From Clostridia bacterium (GTDB taxonomy: Bacteria > Bacillota > Clostridia > Lachnospirales > Cellulosilyticaceae), in the NCBI GenBank assembly GCA_029239755.1, contig JARBUI010000001.1, forward strand, positions 248,001-312,000: a stretch of DNA of 64,000 nt, in the 5' to 3' direction. Of this stretch, positions 3,190 to 38,243 are shown piece by piece. The translations under genes and the position numbers were made by a program. Position 1 is the first letter of the stretch, and each line of letters begins with the position of its first letter. Under the pieces are notes generated by a model that saw only the letters and a list, made by a program, of their open reading frames with translations, ran no database searches and was not told the DNA's origin.

Positions 3190-3329
3190 ATTGCATTATA
3201 TCAAATTATGGAAGTAATGTAAACTAGGAAATGTTAAATTAATTCTATGAAGTATGGTGGGAAATGTTATTTTAGGAATAGTATTGTTTACGGAATCCAT
3301 AGATGTTGTGAGGCTCATTTGTATTAGGG

Positions 3330-3422
3330 CCGCAAGGTGGGGGAGGGATATCTTTTGTGGCTCCACGCCTCCCACAGCCAAACCCGAGTCGCCCCAAAAG
3401 ATATCCCTCCCCCACCCCGCTA
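3330..3422. repeat. Dispersed palindromic repeat, copy A
   Basis: A perfect 22-bp inverted repeat (3336-3357 and 3395-3416) encloses a loop. The loop holds a 28-nt core at 3363-3390 (beginning CCACGCCTCCCACAGCC) that is identical to 37401-37428 in copy B. The arms start after GCAAGG and end before CCGCTA. The arm sequence differs from copy B yet stays self-complementary. The T-free GC-rich arms and the long loop argue against a plain terminator. Confidence 0.85.
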
Positions 3423-3538
3423 ACCACTGATATAATGAGATTAACACTTTATAAAGAAGAAATTAGACTTATAAAAAACAGCTCTCTACTTCTTAGCTAA
3501 TATTTAAGCGTTAGAAATATAGGCTGTCTCTTAATATT

Positions 3539-6059: not shown

Positions 6060-6720
6060 GTTAGTTAAACCGATGGCTTGCACTAGCCATAGAAGGTCAT
6101 ATTACTCATTAGTATCTTAAGATGCATCAAATAGTCCGTCAACCGTATTACTTCCACCGTCAGCCGCTAAAGTGGCTGTCTATTACTATGCCTTCTTATT
6201 CTAACTATCTGTAAACGAGTCTAAATACTCTTTAAGTGATATTTGATCTCGTATAATATCTTCTTGTAATTGATTTTTGATATACTCTTCTATTGCTTTT
6301 TGGTTTCTACCTACCATATCTCCATAAAATCCTCCGCACCAAAAATGTCTGTTTCCATATCTACATTTTAAGTTTGTGTGTCATCAAAAATCATAAATGT
6401 ACTTTTCCCTTTCAAAAATCCCATAAACTAAGCTACGCTTATACTTAGTGGTATACATACAAGCATGTGTATAGGAGCCTTACATGCTTGGGCTTCTATA
6501 ATTTCTATACCTTTTTACTCCATAGCTGTCTAAATATTTGTCCTCTACTTGCTTTTAGCTTCCTATAACTTTCTTGACATCTATACTTAGGGGCAAAACT
6601 ATATGATATTTACATCTCCATTTAGAATGTAATAAACTTGTATGCCATTCATGGGAGATCTCCTTTTGTTATTAGATTGACTCGCGTAGCCCTTTTCTAT
6701 GGTAACAAAAGGAGATCTTT
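6060..6720 (-). mobile_element. Decayed IS200/IS605-family element
   Basis: It consists of a broken tnpA (6201-6648), an upstream end with a 16-bp perfect inverted repeat AGATCTCCTTTTGTTA (6656-6671 and 6703-6718), and a downstream end with two small hairpins. One hairpin is ATGGCT/AGCCAT at 6072-6089 and the other is an imperfect one around CAGCCGC at 6160-6180. Subterminal hairpins instead of terminal inverted repeats are typical of this family. No tnpB or guide RNA is recognisable. The outer limits are estimates. Confidence 0.7.
6201..6648 (-). pseudogene. tnpA: IS200-type TnpA transposase (HUH, Y1), frameshifted
   Basis: Minus-strand fragments in order are MAYK, LLHSKWRCKYHIV, then (after losing one T) APKYR. 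These are followed by IIEAQAC-like, IHMLV, FMGFLKGKS, GNRHFWCGGFYGDMVG, and NQLQEDIIRDQISLKEYL to the stop at 6203. This is the full order of an IS200 TnpA of about 150 residues, including the HMLV region near the HUH motif. Several frameshifts and stops make it inactive. Confidence 0.82.
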
Positions 6721-7061: not shown

Positions 7062-7174
7062 CCTTGTCACTCAATAAGCTACAAGGTTTTAATACGATCA
7101 TGAAGCCTCAAACCTCCAAGGTCTAGGGCCACTAGATTCTTAGTCTGGCACATATGTCAATTGTAATATTGATA
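7062..7174 (-). pseudogene. Decayed tRNA-Leu(AAG) with its terminator
   Basis: Positions 7094-7174 align along their length with the intact tRNA-Leu(AAG) at 12556-12638, in the same orientation. The anticodon loop (minus CTAAGAA), the variable arm and part of the T arm are kept. The D arm, acceptor stem and T stem carry many changes. The associated hairpin at 7062-7086 matches the terminator hairpin at 12524-12546. The stems no longer pair, so it should not make a working tRNA. Confidence 0.85.
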
Positions 7175-7299
7175 TGCAGAAGTATTGATATTCAATACCC
7201 CCATGAGTTAAACAATGGATCTTCTTAAAAGCCGCATACTAATTCTATATAATTAATGTTACTGTGAAAGAAACAAACTTTCAACCGTGTTATAGATAA

Positions 7300-12552: not shown

Positions 12553-12555
12553 TCG

Positions 12556-12638
12556 TGCGATCGGGGGGACTCGAACCCCCAAGGTCTAGGACCACTAGAT
12601 CCTTAGTCTAGCGCGTATGCCAATTCCGCCACGATCGC
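12556..12638 (-). tRNA. tRNA-Leu, anticodon AAG
   Basis: The acceptor GCGATCG (12638-12632) pairs with CGATCGC (12563-12557), with discriminator A. The anticodon stem CTAGA/TCTAG encloses CTAAGGA, giving AAG. The long variable arm is present and no CCA is encoded. It decodes CUU (and CUC by inosine or wobble). Its decayed twin is at 7094-7174. Confidence 0.95.
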
Positions 12639-27238: not shown

Positions 27239-28972
27239 TTATAAACTAACAATCCAATATCCATACTCACCTATTGCAGGTGTAGTCTTTTTACGGCATA
27301 AAAACTTTTCTATCTTTTTATCAGAATCCATAATATTTTTTCTTTCTGGATGATAAATATCCGGTATCCCAATATAATATTTCCCTGTGCCTCTTTCCTT
27401 TCCTAATATAATTTCATTGTATTTATAGTATGAAAAGGTTACAAAAGGCTGTGTGCACCATCTATGAGGCAGAGCTGAAATAGCTGAAAGATCTGCTAGT
27501 GATATTCTTACCCAATCAACCTCGCTGTCTATATATTCAAAAGGCTGAACTTCAGGTGCATTCTCATAAAGATCTTGCAGCTCATCATCACCCATCATAG
27601 GTTCATTTTTTTTTTCTCCTGCTTGCAGATTCCCTTTTGCCTCAATGCTGTTTTTAAGTTCTGCAATCTTATTAAGAATGTCTTCTATCGGAACACTTGC
27701 CCCCATATCTGTTTCTTCTTGGCTGCTTCTTGTTTTATTAAAAAGCTGTATATTTTGGAATCTTTTTATGCTCTGTTCTATATCATCTGATGCTTTTAAT
27801 CTAGCTTGAATATCCTTTAATTTCTTTTCTATTTCTTCAAGATAATTGATTTCTTCCGGAGTTTCTCTTTGAAGTTCATGGTCTGCTAGGTGATTATCTT
27901 CTTCTCTTAATTTTTTATTTGCTATTTTGGGCTCATTATTAAGCTCATTAAAAATTTCTTTATAATTCTTTTGCTTTGTATAAGTTTCTTGAAGAACTCT
28001 CTCTATCTGACACTGGAATATACCTTCATCCTCTGCTTCATCAGGCTCTTCCATTGGCATCTCGTCATCTTCCATTAACATTTCGTCATCTTCCATTGGC
28101 ATTTCATCATCTTCTATTGGCATCATGGCTCCTGTTGGCATCATGGCTCCTGTTGGCATCATAACTCCTGTTGGCATCATAACTCCTGTTGGCATCATGG
28201 CTCCTGTTGGCATCATGGCTCCTGTTGGCATCATGGCTCCTGTTGGCATCATAACTCCTGTTGGCATCATAACTCCTGTTGGCATCATCGACCCCGGTGT
28301 TGGGGTGATAGGTCCCTCTGTTGGTGCTCCAGCTCCTTGTATTGGTGTTATCGGTCCAAATATTGATATACCTGACCCTGGTGTCGGGGTGATAGGTCCC
28401 TCTGTTGGTGCTCCAGCTCCTTGTATTGGTGTTATTGGTCCAAATATTGATATACCCGACCCTGGTGTTGGGGTAATAGGTCCCTCCGTTGGTGCCCCGG
28501 CTCCTTGTATGGGTGTGAGAGGCCCCCCCGTAGCTGACCCCGTCATATTACTACTTGGCATTTCTTCCTCTGGCAATAAGTCTTGCAAAATAGAACTGAT
28601 TCTGTATTTATTACGTGCAAATCCAATAAGAATGGTGTCAGTATTCCGCATACCATTTCCTTCTTTAACAACAGCTACTGCGTCTATATCTTTAGCTTTA
28701 ATACTACTATTCATTACGTTCTGTTCATCAATTCGCCATCTTGTTTCTCTGCTTTCTCTAGGCGACGTTAAGACTCCTATCCTTACCCCTTTATCATCTT
28801 TACTGGAAAAAGCATAGAGCACATATTTCTTTTCATCCTTTGCACTTAAATTTTGCACATAGCATTTAATAATTCCTGGTGTGGATATAGTAACATGCCC
28901 ATTAACTTTTTTACCATCTATTCCATATGTAGGCATATTTTCTTCTAAACCTATTAGTGAATTCACATACAT
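27239..28972 (-). CDS. Repeat-rich lineage-specific protein with DUF6128-like C-terminal domain
   Basis: This is a 577-residue protein in four parts. The N-terminal beta-rich domain (1-145) contains HVTISTPGIIKCYVQNLSAK. A proline/glycine region follows with three near-copies of a 28-residue unit (GPITPIQGAGAPTEGPITPT...), nine MMPTG[VA] hexapeptides and three acidic DDEMPME units. A charged helical segment comes next. The C-terminal domain has VDWVRISLADLSAI, YYIGIPDIYHPE and GEYGYWIVSL, resembling the C-terminal domain (DUF6128-like) of proteins common in Lachnospiraceae. No signal peptide is present. The function is unknown; the repeats suggest a spacer. Confidence 0.8.
   Translation of the reverse strand: MYVNSLIGLEENMPTYGIDGKKVNGHVTISTPGIIKCYVQNLSAKDEKKYVLYAFSSKDDKGVRIGVLTSPRESRETRWRIDEQNVMNSSIKAKDIDAVAVVKEGNGMRNTDTILIGFARNKYRISSILQDLLPEEEMPSSNMTGSATGGPLTPIQGAGAPTEGPITPTPGSGISIFGPITPIQGAGAPTEGPITPTPGSGISIFGPITPIQGAGAPTEGPITPTPGSMMPTGVMMPTGVMMPTGAMMPTGAMMPTGAMMPTGVMMPTGVMMPTGAMMPTGAMMPIEDDEMPMEDDEMLMEDDEMPMEEPDEAEDEGIFQCQIERVLQETYTKQKNYKEIFNELNNEPKIANKKLREEDNHLADHELQRETPEEINYLEEIEKKLKDIQARLKASDDIEQSIKRFQNIQLFNKTRSSQEETDMGASVPIEDILNKIAELKNSIEAKGNLQAGEKKNEPMMGDDELQDLYENAPEVQPFEYIDSEVDWVRISLADLSAISALPHRWCTQPFVTFSYYKYNEIILGKERGTGKYYIGIPDIYHPERKNIMDSDKKIEKFLCRKKTTPAIGEYGYWIVSL
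28125..28287. repeat. 18-bp tandem repeat coding MMPTG[VA]
   Basis: There are nine full copies and one degraded copy of a unit containing GGCATCATGGCTCCTGTT or its ATAACT variant. Two variant types alternate in blocks, which suggests slippage and block duplication. Unit length is a multiple of three, so copy-number change keeps the frame. Confidence 0.95.
28288..28520. repeat. 84-bp tandem repeat in the same gene
   Basis: About two and a half to three copies encode GPITPIQGAGAPTEGPITPT plus PGSGISIF. They differ by a few silent changes. Confidence 0.9.
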
Positions 28973-37047: not shown

Positions 37048-37368
37048 TTAATCCTCTCCCTTTAATCATATTAACTACCATTATATTACAAATATTCGTG
37101 ATATTAAATATCTCGTTTAATCATATCAATGCTCTATCATTTCACATAAGTAATATTTTTTAGTCCTTATTTTAATTATACACCTATCTATACTTAAAAA
37201 TCTTTCCATTCTTTACTTTTTAATAAAAATATAATATTTGAGCAATAAAAAAGAGAATACCGATCTCGATATCCCCCTTTATGTATATGCTATTAATTTA
37301 CTACGGCGCCTACCAGACTATCTGAAAACTACTCATATCCTTTGTAGGTTTAGTATCTATATTAGGTT
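37048..37368. other. Gene-free AT-rich stretch
   Basis: It contains the upstream region of the secreted stalk protein (AGAGG before its ATG), then AT-rich DNA. Nothing else is recognised before repeat copy B. Confidence 0.5.
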
Positions 37369-37459
37369 CGCAAGGCTGCCTGGAGGCACTTTACGTCTTT
37401 CCACGCCTCCCACAGCCAAACCCGAGTCAAGCCGTAAAGTGCCCCCAGCCAGCCTCGCT
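37369..37459. repeat. Dispersed palindromic repeat, copy B
   Basis: Arms of 22 nt (37374-37395 and 37433-37454) pair with two imperfections, one of them G-U compatible. The core at 37401-37428 is identical to that of copy A, while the arms differ in sequence from A. The 5' flank TATTAGG-N3-GCAAGG and the 3' GCTA are shared with copy A. Confidence 0.85.
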
Positions 37460-37530
37460 AGCATTCTAAACTTTTAGGGCAAAACCCTTGCAAAATACTG
37501 ATTTCTTTTAAAACTCGCTATAATAAAGAT

Positions 37531-37749
37531 AAAGAAGGCAGCCCTGCCTATGATCTTAAGGACTTATTGAAGCTTTATCTGTATGGCTACTTTAACAAAG
37601 TGAGTTCTTCTAGAAAGCTTATGAAAGAATGTCACTGAGATACAGACGTAATGTGTTTTCTTAAGAAGTTAACCCCAGATTTTCATGCTATTGCTGACTT
37701 TAGAAAGACAATGCAAAGACACTTAAGAGTGTTTTTAAAGTCTGCATAA
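37531..37749 (+). pseudogene. N-terminal remnant of an IS1182-family transposase
   Basis: The frame reads SPAYDLKDLLKLYLYGYFNK, then VSSSRKLMKECH, an in-frame TGA at 37636, and then FLKKLTPDFHAIADFRK. This is the conserved start of IS1182-type DDE transposases (GRPAYxPxxLLKLLLYGY, SSRKLExEC, LTPDFxTIADFRK). It ends at a stop at 37749. No catalytic domain or ends are seen. Confidence 0.85.
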
Positions 37750-37834
37750 AGATTTGCATTGAGATGAACTTATATTAAGAATATGCGACCCTTTACTTCG
37801 TACTTTTATCTTTAACCTATCTTATTGATAACTA

Positions 37835-38204
37835 GCAAGGGTGAGGGGGGAGGTCTTTTGGTGCGGCTCAGGTTTGGCTGTGGCAGGCTGTCCAAAACTA
37901 TTACCACTTGACTTTTTTCGAAAATTAGCGTGGGGATTTTAGGGTGCGGAAGATGCCTCTGGAGTCATTTCGTTAAAAAAATCTTAGTGGTTTTTTCAAA
38001 TGGTACTTAGCTCGCACTGTTTGAGCGTACGCGAGTTTGCGGCGTTCATTTGAAAAAAGCGCCTAGATTTTTAGAAATGCGCAAGTGAGCAGCTGGAGCA
38101 CCCTAAAATCCCCACGCGGATCGCCTTCGAAAACTAAAATTGTAGTTTTCGGACAGTCTGGGGGGAGGCGTGCAGCATCAAAAGACCTCTCCCCTCTGCC
38201 TTGC
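37835..38204. repeat. Dispersed palindromic repeat, copy C, with a nested palindromic insertion
   Basis: The outer arms (37835-37860 and 38179-38204) pair over 23 of 26 positions. Inside is the A/B core in reverse orientation (from about 37865), split by a second palindrome (37886-38158). That insert has arms GGCTGTCC-AAAACTA and TAGTTTTCGGACAGTC, a perfect inner 20-bp pair (37928-37947 and 38098-38117) and a further imperfect stem (37966-38002 with 38047-38079). The whole could fold into one hairpin of about 370 nt. It has no coding content. Confidence 0.8.
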
Positions 38205-38243
38205 GACTCTCAGTTAGAATGCTTTAAATAAAAATCACTTATC

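Follow-up and report, generated by a model that had tools for sequence, protein, structure and literature searches.

A genus-specific family of probably mobile hairpins with a dedicated IS1182-type invader in Clostridia

Our analysis of the window (the whole 64,000-nt stretch of DNA introduced above) revealed a real, strongly structured, genus-specific family of mobile hairpins that has a dedicated IS1182-type invader. The three members of the family discussed here have distinct roles: copy A is a solo copy, copy B is the hairpin of a dead insertion sequence (IS), and copy C is a landing pad that was struck by a short derivative of such an element. We regard it as rather probable that these are REP-like mobile DNA hairpins of one genus that are used as a landing pad by IS1182-family elements.

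RESULTS

Copy A extends from 3324 to 3433 on the minus strand and scores 121.8 bits with R1, a covariance model that we built from 46 copies; the ends of its G-rich strand are TAGC and GCGG. Its arms (3336-3361 and 3391-3416) are 26 nt each, with 25 of 26 positions complementary, and they enclose a near-invariant loop of 29 nt (3362-3390, minus strand), which reads GACTCGGGTTTGGCTGTGGGAGGCGTGGA on the G strand and is the same in copy B. Folded as single-stranded DNA, the minus strand of A reaches -33.5 kcal/mol, with a z score of -7.3. The original prediction, made from the sequence of the window alone, had assigned to A and B a common core of 28 nt and arms that differ but are self-complementary. 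We found 29 nt shared without change (3362-3390, corresponding to 37400-37428), and the arms indeed differ in sequence, yet each pairs with itself. The end motifs that had been named, GCAAGG and GCTA, are correct.

Copy B (37362-37471, minus strand; R1, 105.5 bits) is the hairpin of a decayed IS, as judged from a terminal repeat on one side and a transposase remnant on the other. The decayed left terminal repeat of an IS1182-type element (CAGACTATCTGAAAACTA, with 2 mismatches) lies at 37314-37331 on the plus strand, about 40 nt from B, and the remnant of an IS1182-family transposase is found at 37513-37764, likewise on the plus strand, with 60% identity over 84 aa and internal stops. Beside the terminal repeat, the short stretch GGCGCCTAC (37302-37313, plus strand) might be a relic of an outer target hairpin, from its left half, a weak reading from its sequence only.

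Copy C (37833 to approximately 38208), which had been proposed as a third copy sharing the core, is a member of the family, but its core is not intact: a 277-bp insert (37884-38160) splits the loop. Its orientation is opposite to that of A and B. The first half of the hairpin (37833-37883, plus strand) faces B and has its G strand on the plus strand; the second half (38161-38208, plus strand) has an approximate end. The insert has the terminal repeats CAGGCTGTCC and GGACAGTCTG, matches the inserts at loci L029 and L195 in length and repeats, and is a short derivative (MITE) of the IS1182 type. It is flanked by GTGG (37880-37883) and GGGG (38161-38164), which we read as a target duplication that has mutated, given the perfect CCAC or GTGG duplications at other inserts. 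The short derivative, both here and at L029, L192, L193, L195, L196, and L061, contains an inner palindrome, GCGTGGGGATTTTAGGGTGC ... GCACCCTAAAATCCCCACGC, and several of its copies have a similar inner segment.

The family to which A, B, and C belong is present far above chance. When the 3.44-Mb genome was searched for the 26-nt core, a check that the original prediction had called for, 13 exact matches and 1 match with one mismatch were returned, and a control with the reversed pattern returned 0. A consensus search and the covariance model together gave approximately 37 class I copies and at least 6 class II copies in G000, the window's genome. Class I hairpins have the near-invariant 29-nt loop and arms of about 27 bp; class II hairpins have the same ends, a similar stem, and a loop composed of GACTTGGA, a short variable part, and GACGGA. 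The set examined after duplicate removal comprised 75 class I and 26 class II copies (101 hairpins), and copies were intergenic where checked. Class II hairpins were located at L116-L129 and L218-L224; we rejected the notion that they are a product of the same IS, as no transposase was found nearby. In G001 and G002 alike, family hairpins are also found downstream of a pirin-like gene.

With the covariance model, the family was detected in all five genomes of the genus. When 196 genomes of the order were sampled, the same search yielded nothing outside the genus at an E value of 0.01, with the exception of G041, which has two weak, shorter matches (29.1 and 26.8 bits), and a DNA search of 59 genomes, own and related, arrived at the same genus limit. 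Within these samples, the family is private to one genus of Clostridia. None of the viral contigs in IMG/VR contains the 18-nt core, and virus-carried spread was rejected on this basis.

Alignment of the copies provided the covariation check that had been recommended. On the G-rich strand, 24 of the 27 pairs change on both sides with pairing kept. Paired cells account for 94.7%, versus 71.3% after shuffling, and the covariation score is 0.664, versus 0.213 shuffled and at most 0.169 slid; as the structure was derived from the same sequences, the slide control favors it, but the gap is large nonetheless. This strong covariation, with arms that vary while pairing stays, supports the earlier claim of selection on structure. 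Little change is seen in the loop, in the mid-stem UUU/AAA, in GGG/CCC, and in a mismatch between two purines that lies 4 nt from the loop on the G strand. The loops are species specific, with five main types in G000 and another type mostly shared by G001 and G002, and within each species they change in concert. Every main loop type contains several GG runs; a G-quadruplex in the loop was nonetheless rejected, as ViennaRNA, set to permit quadruplexes, predicted such a structure for just 4 of 75 copies. In the window, Rfam recovers only two tRNAs, and copy A matches miRNA and other models far below threshold.

The mismatches that do occur in the arms are distributed asymmetrically between the strands. 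Read on the G-rich strand, class I arms contain 142 G·T versus 14 A·C mismatches (P of 8e-28), and class II arms contain 27 versus 7 (P of 8e-4); both values take the copies as independent, which kin are not fully. The G·T:A·C ratio is 31:0 where the G strand is the sense strand of both flanking genes and 55:8 where it is antisense to both. Because the asymmetry does not flip with gene direction, read-through transcripts from neighboring genes are not its cause. Mismatches that are one-sided regardless of gene direction therefore indicate that the folded single-stranded G-rich strand, as either DNA or RNA, is probably the functional form. Upstream of the hairpins on the G strand, sigma-70-like promoters are not enriched, and a sigma-70 promoter belonging to the element was rejected for this reason. 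We likewise rejected a fixed relation to gene direction, of which none was found, and a fixed relation to replication, since hairpin orientation by GC skew shows only a weak bias (22 versus 40; P of 0.03). More free intergenic sequence lies 5' of the G strand (median of 281 nt) than 3' of it (64 nt).

Evidence for mobility comes from an empty site. In G000, a spacer of about 330 bp that contains a hairpin separates a phenylacetate-CoA-ligase-like gene from the gene that follows it, compared with about 45 to 65 bp in G001 and G002; G004 has an unrelated gene and no hairpin at this locus. Some 280 bp including the hairpin is thus present in G000 and absent from three relatives, at the only empty site resolved and with approximate ends. 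A single gain in G000 explains this most simply, with repeated loss as the alternative. Together with the many dispersed intergenic copies, this empty site supports the transposed hairpin envisaged in the original prediction. At L036, a second empty-site test found no homologous region in the relatives. The DNA inserted at the ligase locus contains a short loop match in facing orientation (shuffle fraction, 0.014), which is only suggestive.

Some members of the family occur as inverted doublets. A facing loop is present within 500 nt on the 5' side in 13 of 62 copies and on the 3' side in 0; in these inverted doublets, the 5' ends of the G strand face inward, and most copies are singlets. The 5'-side doublets and the longer 5' stretch would be the pattern expected of an inverted-doublet ancestor many of whose partners have decayed, by analogy with the inverted-doublet origin and partner decay proposed for REPINs (PMC3116915). 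At L002, L012, L029, L031, and L035, the two stems of a facing doublet terminate differently next to the loop, one in GC and its partner in CTC, as though the unit had two distinct kinds of end, comparable to Y and Z REPs. Because several copies hold corresponding positions in two or three of the species, a large part of the family is old and has been passed on vertically. Beside cbiK, for example, orthologous copies in G000, G001, and G002 are alignable on both flanks, and their arms differ yet pair. Between paralogues, sequence conservation 5' of the G strand does not extend past about 50 nt.

The terminal-repeat end of the C insert was searched in the five genomes and found at 32 places. 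About 25 of the 30 ends that were read adjoin half a hairpin, with the junction at a CCAC or GTGG of the loop; this count was made by eye on the flanks, the automatic tag missing some cases and overcalling others. Seven inserts are complete and have complementary hairpin halves (six of 275 to 292 bp and one of 2,004 bp), most of them with CCAC or GTGG on both sides. The IS and its derivative insert almost only in these loops, where they enter at CCAC and duplicate 4 bp.

The 2,004-bp insert, L186 of G003, is a near-complete IS with an IS1182-type transposase of 416 aa whose reading frame is broken. Its terminal inverted repeats are CAGACTGTCC at 603 and GGACAGTCTG ending at 2606. The best NCBIfam match of the transposase is IS1182 (3e-74; 250.6 bits versus a cut-off of 270, the gene being broken), and Pfam DUF772 scores above its cut-off. 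Between its left end and the transposase, the element has a family hairpin of its own, and the whole IS sits in the loop of another. A terminal repeat (at most 4 mismatches) lies no more than about 75 nt from the end of the hairpin in 8 of the 101 hairpins, B among them, versus 0.02 expected, and the near-complete transposase and its two clear relics each adjoin a hairpin. The search for a partner transposase, another check proposed at the outset, thus linked an IS1182-family transposase to the hairpins. The enzyme acting in trans that had been postulated is borne out in part: an IS1182-family element does insert in the loop and carry the hairpin, but it is known as a user of the hairpins and not as the mover of solo copies. 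Because the transposase is nearly extinct in these five genomes, insertion is read from old events.

DISCUSSION

We propose a model in which a protein would read the folded, single-stranded G-rich strand and would thereby recognize or move the elements. The features read would be the loop, the conserved purine mismatch near it, the stem, and the TAGC...GCGG feet. Since such a protein would read the folded strand, loop and foldability would be kept while arm sequence drifts. As the IS bears its own hairpin, each insertion would bring a new landing pad. From the data above, we infer both the movement of the solo copies and the factor that reads the G strand.

Several other explanations need to be weighed against this model. 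The original prediction had also raised a structured RNA, and a family of noncoding RNAs, in which a transcript of the G strand folds, its loop binds a protein or an RNA, and the IS merely exploits the locus, seems to us unlikely, though it deserves some weight. Strong covariation, a constant loop closed by a tandem G·A-like motif, loops that differ by species and change in concert, and the longer free stretch 5' of the G strand (median of 281 versus 64 nt) are all consistent with it. The tolerance of G·U on one strand only is consistent as well, but the same asymmetry is expected of a single-stranded DNA hairpin that tolerates G·T. Moreover, sigma-70-like promoters are not enriched upstream, orientation to genes is inconsistent rather than fixed, paralogues lack conservation beyond about 50 nt on the 5' side, and there is no credible Rfam match. 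The strand asymmetry fits the RNA proposal, but promoter enrichment, a fixed gene orientation, and an Rfam match were looked for and not found.

Alternatively, all solo hairpins could be leftovers of IS-borne hairpins after decay of the IS1182-family element. Although the IS carries a hairpin, 8 of 101 copies keep the terminal repeat at the expected distance, and a near-complete transposase and two clear relics are each found beside a hairpin, we consider this account improbable: most solo copies have no trace of terminal repeat or transposase, and their flanks differ from IS-borne ones (GCTAGCCATTGATA in G000); arms and loops are better preserved than a dead IS would allow; and class II hairpins have no link to the IS. 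Intrastrand template switching can correct long palindromes, and the pairing of an unselected fold might be kept purely by processes acting on DNA, either such switching or gene conversion from one arm to the other, with a one-strand deamination bias producing the asymmetry. C-to-T and A-to-G changes on the G strand would yield the same mismatch types, and a mutation bias that affects one strand of the element would lead to an asymmetry of the same sign. However, the loop, the feet, UUU/AAA, GGG/CCC, and the purine mismatch located 4 nt from the loop are constant although neighboring positions change, the asymmetry is equal in all gene contexts, and loops change in concert within species, all of which makes this explanation highly improbable.

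The REP-like reading that we prefer rests on a comparison with REP, BIME, and REPIN sequences and their RAYT transposases in enterobacteria and Pseudomonas (PMC3116915, PMC8266576, PMC1525189). Like these, the hairpins are intergenic palindromes that number at least in the tens (about 37 class I copies between genes in G000 alone make them repeated extragenic palindromes), they occur as inverted doublets and singlets, they have a conserved loop and stem mismatch and a TAG-containing foot 5' of the stem, and they serve as landing sites for IS. REP elements are bound strand specifically as folded single strands, with contacts to loop and mismatch (PMC8266576), and are favored sites of several IS (PMC1525189). 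The hairpins resemble REPs in their distribution, doublets, and use by IS.

There are also clear differences. REPs are 20 to 40 nt long, in contrast to hairpins of about 100 nt with arms of about 27 bp; the REP foot is GTAG (or GGAG), whereas that of the family is NTAG, with TAGC in 64 of 101 copies and a variable preceding base that is rarely G; and arms differ between copies, most of which are singlets. The RAYT-like gene, furthermore, is not flanked by hairpins. This Y1 gene is single copy in four of the five genomes of the genus, and similar Y1 proteins occur in genera without the hairpin family. A RAYT as the mover was rejected, the gene being present but not linked to the hairpins. It encodes approximately 300 aa and lies between helicase-like and spore-germination-type genes at the same place in the four genomes (L144:1462-2358, L149, L142, and L143). 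Because length and RAYT linkage depart from those of REPs, we do not file the hairpins among them. Somewhat speculatively, they could represent a previously undescribed class of mobile hairpins, in which a folded strand is recognized, a near-invariant loop is read, arms may drift as long as they pair, loops change in a species-concerted manner, and a transposon has captured the hairpin, thereby bearing a landing pad of its own; we hold this to be possible, though less than likely.

The invader itself has known counterparts. IS1272 and TnSha1, of the IS1182 family, have been reported to insert in stem-loops of varied sequence without duplication, and the L186-type element resembles them in its IS1182-type transposase, its size of about 2 kb, and its insertion in hairpins (PMC5678879, PMC4923244). 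Terminal inverted repeats and, as reported for some IS1182-family members, palindrome targeting are both found for the L186 element and its relics. It differs in having one target family, a site in the loop, and a 4-bp duplication, whereas IS1272 replaces varied stem-loops without duplication; unlike IS1272 and TnSha1, it also carries a copy of its own target. IS1397, ISKpn1, ISPpu9, ISPpu10, and IS621 similarly insert almost exclusively at a fixed point of a repeated palindrome (PMC1525189), but these REP-specific elements belong to other families (IS3 and IS110), and in the literature on these five we found no statement of a palindrome carried by the IS itself. Rfam hairpin noncoding RNA motifs with conserved terminal loops have the covarying stem and conserved loop in common with the family; the latter differs in giving no credible match, being limited to one genus, being invaded by an IS, and having no promoter signal.

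The family is a clear example from nature in which parts that are recognized (loop, mismatch, and feet) are separated from parts that need only to fold, the arms being nearly free in sequence with pairing kept. The family also suggests that REP-like systems extend beyond the groups in which they were defined and may have much longer hairpins. Structure-guided target choice in the IS1182 family also becomes testable, because the element described here has a single repeated target and bears a copy of it.

In the window, a likely anti-phage island (4065-11774) between tRNA-Leu genes at 1413-1497 and 12555-12638 is the immediate neighbor of copy A, and DNA similarity to relatives ends near 3226. 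The island encodes a GmrSD-N protein as well as a DEAD-box helicase and a small protein with resemblance to HamB and HamA (Hachiman-like). A degenerate sequence at 7093-7175, about 60% identical to the tRNA-Leu genes, is perhaps a trace of island integration, and what remains of a Y1 (IS200-like) transposase, interrupted by four stops, lies at 6371-6559. Farther along the window, tandem repeats of 18 and 84 bp (28047-28541) are found within the gene for a DUF7922 protein (27239-28972).
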